Positions 18,658 to 23,405 of a stretch of 64,000 nucleotides of DNA are shown piece after piece. Source of the DNA: Nitrosopumilus sp. LS_AOA (GTDB lineage: Archaea > Thermoproteota > Nitrososphaeria > Nitrososphaerales > Nitrosopumilaceae); the NCBI GenBank assembly GCA_001543015.1, contig LFLC01000038.1:1-64000 (forward strand). Direction: 5' to 3'. The notes beneath the pieces are model-generated. The model had not been told where the DNA came from. It saw only the letters and a list, made by a program, of their open reading frames with translations, and made no database searches. A program made the translations under genes and the position numbers. Positions within the stretch are counted from its first letter, which is position 1; the number at the start of each line of letters is the position of its first letter.

Positions 18658-18878
18658 ATTTGTTTAAAAATAGTTACGGATTAAAATTTCAAAAATAAAA
18701 TGGATTGAAAAAAATTTTTACTGTAGGCTCAAATAATTTTTAAAATCTTTAACCTCTTTATGCCCAGAAATTATTATTCCAGTGTAGAATGATGATTAGG
18801 TCAACTGATGAAAATGAAGAGATATGACCTGGGGTATCTGACTGCACAATTGGTTACATCATAATTACCTAATTATTA

Positions 18879-18903
18879 ATAGTACGGTACCATACCGTAC
18901 TAT
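18879..18903. promoter_or_regulatory. Perfect 25-bp palindrome ATAGTACGGTA-CCA-TACCGTACTAT (11-bp arms, 3-nt spacer)
   Basis: Read directly; ends one base before ATG at 18904. Confidence 0.8.
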
Positions 18904-19011
18904 ATGATTCAATGTGAATATTGTACAAGGGGTTTTATCGAAACACACAATGGTTTGGCTGAAAAAACCTTTCATGAGTTACTTCACGAACCAACTGTTG
19001 TAAACAAATAA
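18904..19011 (+). CDS. Candidate 35-aa CxxC/His microprotein MIQCEYCTRGFIETHNGLAEKTFHELLHEPTVVNK
   Basis: Complete ATG-TAA ORF below the track cutoff, directly after the palindrome; C-x2-C plus HELLH. Confidence 0.55.
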   Translation: MIQCEYCTRGFIETHNGLAEKTFHELLHEPTVVNK

Positions 19012-19072: not shown

Positions 19073-20572
19073 ATGACTGCCAAAGTTACCAAAAAGAAAG
19101 TAACCAAAAAAATAGTGAAAAAAGAACCCACACCATCAGCAGTATTAAAAAAAGTTGCTTCAGTTTCAGACTCGAATAAAGCATTACAAAAAGAGATCAA
19201 AGTCATGACCAAAATATTTGGTGAAAATCAAAAAGTCCTAGTATCTATGAAAGGTATGATCGATACACTCTCATCAACTCTAGAGCACATTCAAAAACAA
19301 TCAAAGCAAATTAACATTATCGAAGATGATACTCAAAAACTGTATGCAGGATTAAATCAAGTTAGAGCACAATCAAATCTAGTTGATAAAATTAATAATC
19401 AAACTATCAAATTACAAGAAGAAATTTCAACAATACAAAAAGATTCAAAATCTCAAGACATATCCCAACAAGTAGAAGATAGTGTCAATTCTATCAAAAA
19501 TAATTCTCAGATGATAATTAAGATTGCTCAAAGAATTGATGAGGTAAGAGATGATCTACGAAAGGTTTCTGGAAAAGCAGATTCATTTGTGGAGATTGGT
19601 TCTGAAATGGAGAAATTAAAAAGTAGTATAGAAGAGATGGCAGGAAAAACTGCACAATTAGATACAGGAGCTCAAATTATTGAAAGCCTCAAACAAGAAT
19701 TAGGGAAAATTACTGATGGAGTTTCTGATTCATCAAATCTTGGTTCAGAACTTGATGCAATCAAAGTTGCCATTGATGCAATCTCATCTAAAGCATCAAA
19801 AATTGATTCATTAGGAGGAGTAATTGATGGACTAAAGCAACAGTTTGAAACAATTTCTGCAAAGGCTAGTTCAGCTGACAATTTGAGCCTAGAGTCAATC
19901 AAAGACATGTCAGGAAAGATAGATAAAATTGAGACTGAGATTGGTGCATTATCACATAGAGCAGACTCTACTGCATTTGTTGGAGAGGGGCTCAAATCAG
20001 TTCAAGAAGAAGTTGCTAGTTTCAAACAAAATGTATTTGATAAAACAAATAATATCGAGCAAAAAATTACTTCAGTTTCAGAAATTCTAAAAAGACAAGA
20101 TGCATCAGTTATTGAATTTCATAAAAAATCTGATAAATTATTTGAAGAGATGCAATCAATCAAGAATGTTACAAGTAAAGCATCAAGTGATTCATCAAAT
20201 GAGATGATGGTATTACTAAAGCTATCAGAATATCAATCAAACATCAGAATGAATTCAGAGTCAAAGTATGGAAATAGTAAAGATCTTGAAAAAATGGGAA
20301 CAATGACTGCAGATATTGTTAATTTATTTGATAGAGTTTCAATTGAGTCAGGAGAAAATATTCCACTTCCTCATGAAGTAAGACTGTGGGCAGTAAGTAA
20401 AATTTTAGATTGTGCAGACAAATGGGAAATTAGATTCAGCGATGTCTATTCAATTTTAACAAATGCGATTGGGCGAGACATGCTAAAAGAATCAATAAGA
20501 ATTCAGCAAGTACGAGACATTTATGGAATAAGAGCAGTTGATGAAATTAGAAATGATCTAAATATTTCCTAA
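19073..20572 (+). CDS. Long coiled-coil protein with Lys-rich N-terminus and globular C-terminal domain
   Basis: 499-aa ORF; heptad-like sequence over ~330 residues. Confidence 0.8.
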   Translation: MTAKVTKKKVTKKIVKKEPTPSAVLKKVASVSDSNKALQKEIKVMTKIFGENQKVLVSMKGMIDTLSSTLEHIQKQSKQINIIEDDTQKLYAGLNQVRAQSNLVDKINNQTIKLQEEISTIQKDSKSQDISQQVEDSVNSIKNNSQMIIKIAQRIDEVRDDLRKVSGKADSFVEIGSEMEKLKSSIEEMAGKTAQLDTGAQIIESLKQELGKITDGVSDSSNLGSELDAIKVAIDAISSKASKIDSLGGVIDGLKQQFETISAKASSADNLSLESIKDMSGKIDKIETEIGALSHRADSTAFVGEGLKSVQEEVASFKQNVFDKTNNIEQKITSVSEILKRQDASVIEFHKKSDKLFEEMQSIKNVTSKASSDSSNEMMVLLKLSEYQSNIRMNSESKYGNSKDLEKMGTMTADIVNLFDRVSIESGENIPLPHEVRLWAVSKILDCADKWEIRFSDVYSILTNAIGRDMLKESIRIQQVRDIYGIRAVDEIRNDLNIS

Positions 20573-21264
20573 ATACCAATTTCATCTATTTTCTGGAGTT
20601 GTTCTTTCTTTCTTTTCAATAAAGTAATGATTCCAATTACTACTGCAACCCAAACTACACTCATCATCATGTTTTCAGGACTGACATACATGTATGGAGT
20701 TGAATCCATTACATTTGTTTTCAATAATTCTGCCCTATCATTGATATCCAACATTCCCGTATGAAATGCAGAATTATCTTTTGAAATGGATGAGATTTCA
20801 TTAACACTGGTAATCATGGTGTCAATATTATTTTGAATTCTGAGGAAATTTGTAGATTCTGTACTAAATATCCAAACAGGGTTTTTAGCAATCAATTTAC
20901 CGTTTGCATCAAATGTATCAGGAATATTCACCATTACAATATCCAAATCAGTTTGAATTGCTACTAAATGATCACGAATTACATTAGGATCTGAAGAAGA
21001 GACAATTCCATCAAGATTTCCTCGAATTCTATCAAGAGGGTAAATGTCAGTATTGTAACCAGAAATTGCCATGTAACCACCAAATACAATTATCGCAAAA
21101 ATTCCAAGCATTGCAAGTTTGTAAATATTATTAGACATTGTTGTTTTACCACCATTGTTCTGAGTTACATTATTTGAAGTTAATCTTGATTTTGCAGTGA
21201 CTATTATGATACCTACTATTGCAATTGCCAATACAACCATTGCAAGTGAATCAAATTCGGGCAT
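20569..21264 (-). CDS. Membrane protein: N-terminal PEFG-CTERM-like segment fused to a copy of the adjacent glycosyltransferase's C-terminal domain
   Basis: MPEFDSLAMVVLAIAIVGIIIVTAKSRL, then NNIYKLAMLG...LKRKKEQL nearly identical to the C-terminus of 21321..23405. Start taken at ATG 21264 (ORF opens at 21300). Confidence 0.75.
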   Translation of the reverse strand: MPEFDSLAMVVLAIAIVGIIIVTAKSRLTSNNVTQNNGGKTTMSNNIYKLAMLGIFAIIVFGGYMAISGYNTDIYPLDRIRGNLDGIVSSSDPNVIRDHLVAIQTDLDIVMVNIPDTFDANGKLIAKNPVWIFSTESTNFLRIQNNIDTMITSVNEISSISKDNSAFHTGMLDINDRAELLKTNVMDSTPYMYVSPENMMMSVVWVAVVIGIITLLKRKKEQLQKIDEIGI

Positions 21265-21320
21265 CAGAGAAATTACTCGTAAAGACACATAAAAATTCAC
21301 TGAAATTTCCAGAGAAAGAA

Positions 21321-23405
21321 CTAGACTGTTTCTAAAGCAATATTGGGCGATAAATCAGATTTTTTGAGTTGTGCTCTCTTTCTTTTCAATACAGCAAAGA
21401 TTCCAATAATTGCTGCAACCCAAACTACACTCATCACCATATTTGCGGGACTGATGTACATGTATTGTGTTGCATCCATAATATTGATTTTTAATGAAAT
21501 TGATCTATCATTGATATCTAACATTGCTGTATGATATGCAGGGTTGTCTTTTGGAATGGATGAGATTTCATTAACACTGATAATCATAGTATCAATATTA
21601 TTTTGAATTCTAAGAAAGTTTGTAGATTCTGTACTAAATATCCAAACAGGGTTTTTGGCAATCAATTTACCATCTGCATCAATTGTTTCAGGAATATTCA
21701 CCATTACAACATCCAAATCAGTTTGAATGGATACTAAATGATCTCGAATAATATTAGGATCTGAAGAACCTACAATTCCATCAAGATTTCCTCGAATTCT
21801 ATCAAGAGGGTAAATCTCAGTATTGTAACCAGAAATTGCCATGTAACCACCAAAGATAATTATCGCAGCAATTCCAAGCATTGCAAGTTTGTAAACATTA
21901 TTTGCAGTTTTCTCTTTTTTTGTGAGAGGTACAGCATTTTTGGATTTTTTACTTCTAAATCGTGTATGAGATATACTCAGGTATGCAATAAAGAAAAAGC
22001 CAATAGTTTGTAATGCAATAATTGGTACAAAAATTGGATTATTTGAAAATATTGCAATAAAGATTCCCATAATACCATATACACCAAAAAAGATCTCAAG
22101 AAGGGTAGTTTGTGTAAATGGTAAGTTGTAGGCCTTGTCTTTCCAATCATCATCTTTTGAAATTAAACCATATTTTGGAGTCCGAAGAAATTCATTTTTC
22201 TTTCCAAGAACGGCATCAAAGACTGCAACAGTATTATTTACAGACATTCCCGCATTGTAAATTAACAATGCAGGCATTATCTTCATTTTTGATTTCCAAG
22301 ATTTTCCATACATACTTTGCATAATCAGTATGTATGCACCAGGTCCCATTGCAAGATATGTTGCAAGAGTAATTACAGGAAGGAAACTTACTACGTAAAG
22401 ATTTACTTGTCCTGCTAACAAAATGGGTAATGTCAAAAATTGAATCAGTATCAAAGGAAAAACAATGTGACGAGTTAATTGAATAAATGCCTGAATTTTT
22501 GCTTCAATTGCAACTTTACGTTTTACAACAATATCAAAAAGTAATTTTGTTGCACATTGAATAGAACCTTTTGCCCAACGATATTGTTGTCTTTTAGCAC
22601 CATTCATCTGAGCAGGTAGTTCTGCATCAACTACAATATCAGGTAAGAAAACACATTTCCATCCTTTCATTTGTGCCCTATAACTCAAATCAAGATCTTC
22701 AACTAGTGTTGCAGTATGCCAGCCTCCAGCATCTTCAATACAATCTCGTCTCCAAATTCCAGCAGTGCCATTAAAATTCATAAAAAGATGAGAATTACTC
22801 TTGGCTTTTTGTTCAATTAGAAAATGGAAATCAAGACTTAGTGCTTGAACTTGAGTAATGGTGGAATAGTTTTCATTTACATGCCCCCAACGACATTGAA
22901 TTAAGCCAATGTTTGATTTTGCAAAATGTGGAATTGCTTGTTTGAGAAACGATGTAGGTGGAATAAAGTCAGCATCAAAGATTGCAACATATTCAGAAGT
23001 GGTGATTTCCATTGCATATTTGAGAGCGCCTGCCTTGTACCCTTTTCTTGTGCCCCTACGAATATGTTCAATTGCAAACCCCTGTTTTTTATAATCATTA
23101 ACTACATTTTCAAGTAATTGTACGGTGTCATCATCAGAGTCATCTAATACCATAATGTTTAGTTGTTCTTTTGGATAATCCAAATTACAAACTGCATCAA
23201 CTAGTCTCTTTGCAACATATTTTTCATTATAAATTGGAAGTTGTATTGTAACTGACGGGGTTCCCAAATCAGCAGTAGGTAAAATATTTTTTCTTCGTCT
23301 AGAAAGAAATGCCAAATAGTAAAAATTTACAGTGTAAGCAGAAATAATTATAGCTGATAAAATAAACAGATCAAAAATTAACTGAGTAAATGGATTTGCT
23401 GACAT
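21321..23405 (-). CDS. GT2-family membrane glycosyltransferase (cellulose synthase-like) with C-terminal two-TM domain
   Basis: VTIQLPIYNE, VLDDSDDDT, FDADF, VEDLDLSYR, QQYRWAKGS. Confidence 0.92.
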   Translation of the reverse strand: MSANPFTQLIFDLFILSAIIISAYTVNFYYLAFLSRRRKNILPTADLGTPSVTIQLPIYNEKYVAKRLVDAVCNLDYPKEQLNIMVLDDSDDDTVQLLENVVNDYKKQGFAIEHIRRGTRKGYKAGALKYAMEITTSEYVAIFDADFIPPTSFLKQAIPHFAKSNIGLIQCRWGHVNENYSTITQVQALSLDFHFLIEQKAKSNSHLFMNFNGTAGIWRRDCIEDAGGWHTATLVEDLDLSYRAQMKGWKCVFLPDIVVDAELPAQMNGAKRQQYRWAKGSIQCATKLLFDIVVKRKVAIEAKIQAFIQLTRHIVFPLILIQFLTLPILLAGQVNLYVVSFLPVITLATYLAMGPGAYILIMQSMYGKSWKSKMKIMPALLIYNAGMSVNNTVAVFDAVLGKKNEFLRTPKYGLISKDDDWKDKAYNLPFTQTTLLEIFFGVYGIMGIFIAIFSNNPIFVPIIALQTIGFFFIAYLSISHTRFRSKKSKNAVPLTKKEKTANNVYKLAMLGIAAIIIFGGYMAISGYNTEIYPLDRIRGNLDGIVGSSDPNIIRDHLVSIQTDLDVVMVNIPETIDADGKLIAKNPVWIFSTESTNFLRIQNNIDTMIISVNEISSIPKDNPAYHTAMLDINDRSISLKINIMDATQYMYISPANMVMSVVWVAAIIGIFAVLKRKRAQLKKSDLSPNIALETV

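Follow-up and report, generated by a model that had tools for sequence, protein, structure and literature searches.

A short, nearly symmetric element lies ahead of the start codon of a 35-residue microprotein gene, in the interval that follows the TATA box. We consider it reasonably likely that this element is an operator serving a small regulon, with an autoregulated winged-helix protein as the probable repressor. This model is built on the observed conservation of the element, the set of genes that it precedes and the geometry of the site; the element was found in a 64,000-nucleotide stretch of Nitrosopumilus sp. LS_AOA DNA (the window), and recurs at the same genes across genera of its family of ammonia-oxidising archaea (Nitrosopumilaceae).

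The inverted repeat and the promoter of the microprotein gene

The inverted repeat ATAGTACGGTACCATACCGTACTAT occupies positions 18879-18903 (no strand assigned) and is directly adjoined by the ATG of a 35-residue open reading frame, which begins at 18904. Reading the sequence alone, this had been described as a perfect 25-bp palindrome abutting the ATG; the dyad does abut the ATG, but it is not perfect: two arms of 11 bp flank a 3-nt spacer that is not symmetric (ATAGTACGGTA-CCA-TACCGTACTAT), so that the repeat and its own reverse complement differ by 3 mismatches. By itself the dyad is marginal and barely above chance, since the window was found to hold a single inverted repeat whose arms reach 11 bp or more with a loop of up to 5 nt, against 0.55 expected from first-order Markov sequence modelled on it. 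The family consensus GTACSGTAYNRTACSGTA occurs only once in the window, and none of 100 shuffles contained a match with up to 2 mismatches. It is conservation, rather than the statistics of the dyad, that is decisive for the reality of the element: palindrome and ORF proved to be conserved jointly across the family, the point on which the sequence-only reading had staked its proposal.

Three conserved blocks were identified upstream of the ATG when 90 distinct microprotein promoters were compared: a dyad GGTNAY-N6-RTNACC (here GGTTACATCATAATTACC, 18852-18869, no strand assigned, positions -52 to -35, upstream of the TATA box), a TATA-like TTAATA (18876-18881, plus strand, positions -28 to -23), conserved across genera, and the operator core GTACSGTAYNRTACSGTA (here GTACGGTACCATACCGTA, 18882-18899, no strand assigned, positions -22 to -5), which is defined by its conservation and by its recurrence before other genes. 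These blocks persist in genera in which the sequence further upstream is unrelated, and in nearly all genera GTACSGTAYNRTACSGTA lies between TTAATA and the microprotein ATG. The core contains two TACSGTA units (18883-18889 and 18893-18899), 10 bp apart from centre to centre. A repeated unit exists, as had been supposed, but it is TACSGTA, at a spacing of 10-11 bp, and not the half-site TAGTACGGTA that had been put forward.

From the position of TTAATA we infer that the microprotein mRNA starts at or near the ATG, and is therefore leaderless, with the element placed between the TATA box and the transcription start. A protein bound to the element, which fills this gap, would block the transcription machinery and so repress the gene. 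The repeated unit TACSGTA is itself two-fold symmetric, and its two copies are separated by roughly one turn of the helix, so that two dimers could well be accommodated on the same face of the DNA.

Arms of 11 bp with a 3-nt loop beside the ATG could also be those of a hairpin formed by the 5' end of the mRNA to control translation from the adjoining ATG, and we considered this explanation. We rejected it as extremely unlikely. The two S positions are found as G/C, C/C, C/G and G/G, with no strict covariation between the arms, and some relatives have broken arms and retain the TAC repeats, which shows that pairing is not under selection; moreover, judged from the TATA box, transcription is predicted to begin downstream of the element, and before trpE (see below) the element is far from the coding start. 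The palindrome would accordingly act as a transcriptional operator and not as an RNA signal.

The upstream GGTNAY-N6-RTNACC dyad is kept in most of the 90 promoters and is a possible activator site, at which an activator may bind; in a genome-wide search for a regulon of its own it was not enriched over the reversed control. At one locus (L057, reverse strand), several tandem copies of this dyad, about 20 bp apart, lie upstream of the microprotein start.

Further features were observed in the neighbourhood. Positions 18785-18843 (plus strand) contain a box C/D sRNA-like gene, with a C box TGATGA (18790-18795), a D' box CTGA (18805-18808), a C' box TGAAGA (18815-18820) and a D box CTGA (18838-18841). 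Its guide, GACCTGGGGTAT, is kept within the genus, and other genera have lost or altered it; its match to the Rfam family sR9 is below the gathering score (E 0.05), and an exact 12-nt target was found in the genome at its own locus only. On the other side, two adjacent genes on the minus strand (20569-21300 and 21321-23405) encode C-terminal stretches that are nearly identical (LAMLGI-AAI--FGGYMAISGYNT-IYPLDRIRGNLDGIV...), pointing to a partial tandem duplication beside a glycosyltransferase-like domain.

The CCHH microprotein

The ORF at 18904-19011 (plus strand), already recognized from the sequence, is a real gene. Its presence extends to 222 of the 251 family genomes (127 of the 132 better ones) and to 22 of 22 genera, usually as one copy per genome, and its median dN/dS over 2055 pairs is 0.075; in a set of 61 relatives, a match was found in 32, every one of them within the own genus. 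Outside the family, a profile search of 32 genomes from other families of the order returned nothing convincing (best E 0.096), and no curated family matched the microprotein above its cut-off.

Seven residues are invariant in 28 diverse members (Met1, Cys4, Cys7, Phe11, Gly17, His24 and His28), so that, besides the four candidate metal ligands (Cys4, Cys7, His24 and His28), little else is strictly kept. This pattern supports the suggestion of a small metal-binding protein, and metal binding by the microprotein is likely, the metal probably being zinc. In the same 28 members the ligand spacing is C-x2-C-x16-H-x3-H, which does not fit the classical C2H2 finger (C-x2-4-C-x12-H-x3-5-H), and in fact the Pfam zf-C2H2 models match the microprotein weakly. 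Neither does it follow a CPxCG-like pattern, since the CxxC pair has no proline after the first cysteine or glycine after the second, and the other pair is HxxxH. When the microprotein was modelled by itself with AlphaFold2 (AF2), the outcome was one helix of low quality (pLDDT 58), which has no part in our argument.

Recurrence of the element before other genes

In the genome of LS_AOA itself, the element also precedes radA (Pfam Rad51), trpE (Pfam Chorismate_bind) and a gene for a 118-residue winged-helix protein, so that it looks like a switch by which a few genes are controlled, and not like a peculiarity of one. A search of 22 genomes of 14 genera returned 69 forward and 66 reverse matches, against 7 and 4 in the reversed control; forward and reverse matches are largely the same places, because the pattern is nearly symmetric. 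The sites that were retrieved gave repeatedly the same four genes (microprotein, radA, trpE and winged-helix), always beside a TATA-like element, and all four were seen with the element in G007, G160, G031, G083, G256, G022 and G240. At the winged-helix gene, the site was intact or degenerate in 20 of 20 further genomes inspected, with a spacer of 3 or 4 nt, from which it follows that the conserved unit is TACSGTA, in two copies 10 or 11 bp apart. None of 18 genomes from other families contained the element, and it was also missing from one genus, g41.

In radA and in the winged-helix gene the site generally overlaps the start codon by one base, its final A serving as the first base of the ATG. 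In trpE, the site comes directly after TATAAAGG, 60-185 nt ahead of the coding start. By eye, we noticed in one operator-to-trpE leader (L103:1500-1620) a 20-residue upstream ORF, MPEKSIISNKSWSGVIFLSL, with one tryptophan.

Given that the element always comes directly after a TATA box, it could be a special core-promoter element, read by basal factors such as one of several TFB/TBP variants, instead of an operator. We hold this to be improbable, since the element is found at very few genes in each genome, and its two-fold symmetry, together with a distance from the TATA box that differs by several bp between genes, fits a site for a dimer and not a fixed core element. The operator reading, which had been proposed from the sequence, is borne out by the position between TATA box and predicted start, by conservation throughout the family and by the same placement in the radA, trpE and winged-helix promoters; a symmetric site so placed and common to several promoters is what is looked for in a repressor operator. 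We thus regard it as well supported that the element serves as operator for a small regulon found across the family, and the small, probably zinc-binding microprotein would be made under the control of the TACSGTA operator, together with RadA, TrpE and the winged-helix protein (115-121 residues across genera). For the proposal that the microprotein may be a metal or redox sensor we found no evidence, and radA, trpE and a winged-helix gene do not look like a metal-specific regulon.

The candidate binder

The winged-helix protein is present in almost every genus of the family, and none was found in the genomes of other families that were searched. Its matches to HTH_45, DUF7347, Sso10a and AspA are in keeping with a winged helix, but all are weak and below the curated cut-offs. 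It is encoded by the only likely regulator gene that we found to carry the site family-wide, and a regulator gene that carries the operator of its own regulon is the usual sign of autoregulation; the winged-helix gene is therefore likely to be autoregulated. We propose that the winged-helix protein is the most likely binder of the element, and that it probably represses its own gene and the others of the regulon. A viral origin was also considered and rejected, as we found no phage record, and the winged-helix protein showed no relative among viruses.

Another protein could bind the operator, such as the product of a 128-residue gene or a regulator that escaped detection. The winged-helix protein was not detected in G066 (genus g23), where radA and the microprotein gene nevertheless keep degenerate sites, which makes another or a diverged binder possible; the 128-residue gene, of unknown family, has its own site, with one mismatch, in LS_AOA and in G007. 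We regard a different binder as unlikely, because the winged-helix gene is the sole likely regulator with the site across the family, and protein and site are both missing from the genomes of other families that were searched. The 128-residue protein (L107:1102-1488, minus strand; L163) contains two cysteine pairs near its C-terminal end and could be a regulator.

The microprotein itself, with its finger-like CCHH set and its gene directly behind the site, might bind the palindrome and repress its own gene. This seems very improbable, as 35 residues with one finger offer little for the specific recognition of 18 bp, and other genes are also under the site. Returning to repression by the winged-helix protein, we may speculate, with considerable doubt, that this repressor ties together, family-wide, homologous recombination (radA), tryptophan synthesis (trpE) and the nearly universal microprotein, and that the latter acts back on it as a metal- or stress-responsive partner.

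Comparison with known systems

One known kind of archaeal repressor operator is placed between the TATA box and the transcription start. The element described here resembles such operators, with a dyad between the TATA box and the predicted start, a small set of genes and a likely autoregulated winged-helix gene among its targets. To our knowledge, no such operator has this sequence, the paired TACSGTA units or this gene set (radA, trpE, winged-helix and microprotein), and our full-text literature searches found no earlier description in the papers that they covered. In methanogens, TrpY controls trpE through TGTACA boxes. A GTAC-centred site in control of trpE would be common to both systems, but the element and the gene set, which here includes radA, are different.

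Among proteins of known structure in the PDB, the best sequence match of the winged-helix family profile is AspA, at an E-value of only 0.048. AspA, from the Sulfolobus plasmid pNOB8, forms winged-helix dimers and recognizes a palindrome of 23 bp located before its own gene; it serves in plasmid segregation and spreads along the DNA (PMC5120986). The likeness would lie in the winged helix and in a palindrome before the own gene, to which binding is here predicted.

Brz and the CPxCG-related zinc-finger proteins are very small archaeal proteins with two metal-ligand pairs, and Brz affects the transcription of neighbouring genes (PMC2253796, PMC10716476, PMC11241148). The microprotein is similar to these in its tiny size, archaeal origin and two candidate ligand pairs; it differs in its ligand spacing, in its length of 35 residues and in being restricted so far to one family.

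Significance

We know of few regulons in ammonia-oxidising archaea for which a defined site and a candidate regulator are available. For the whole family, the present analysis offers a precisely defined operator that can be tested, a repressor that is likely to be autoregulated, and a set of four targets. A nearly universal protein of 35 residues is among them, and such genes may be missed by gene calling based on length. Because radA belongs to the proposed regulon, a possible connection with the control of recombination or DNA damage can be tested directly.
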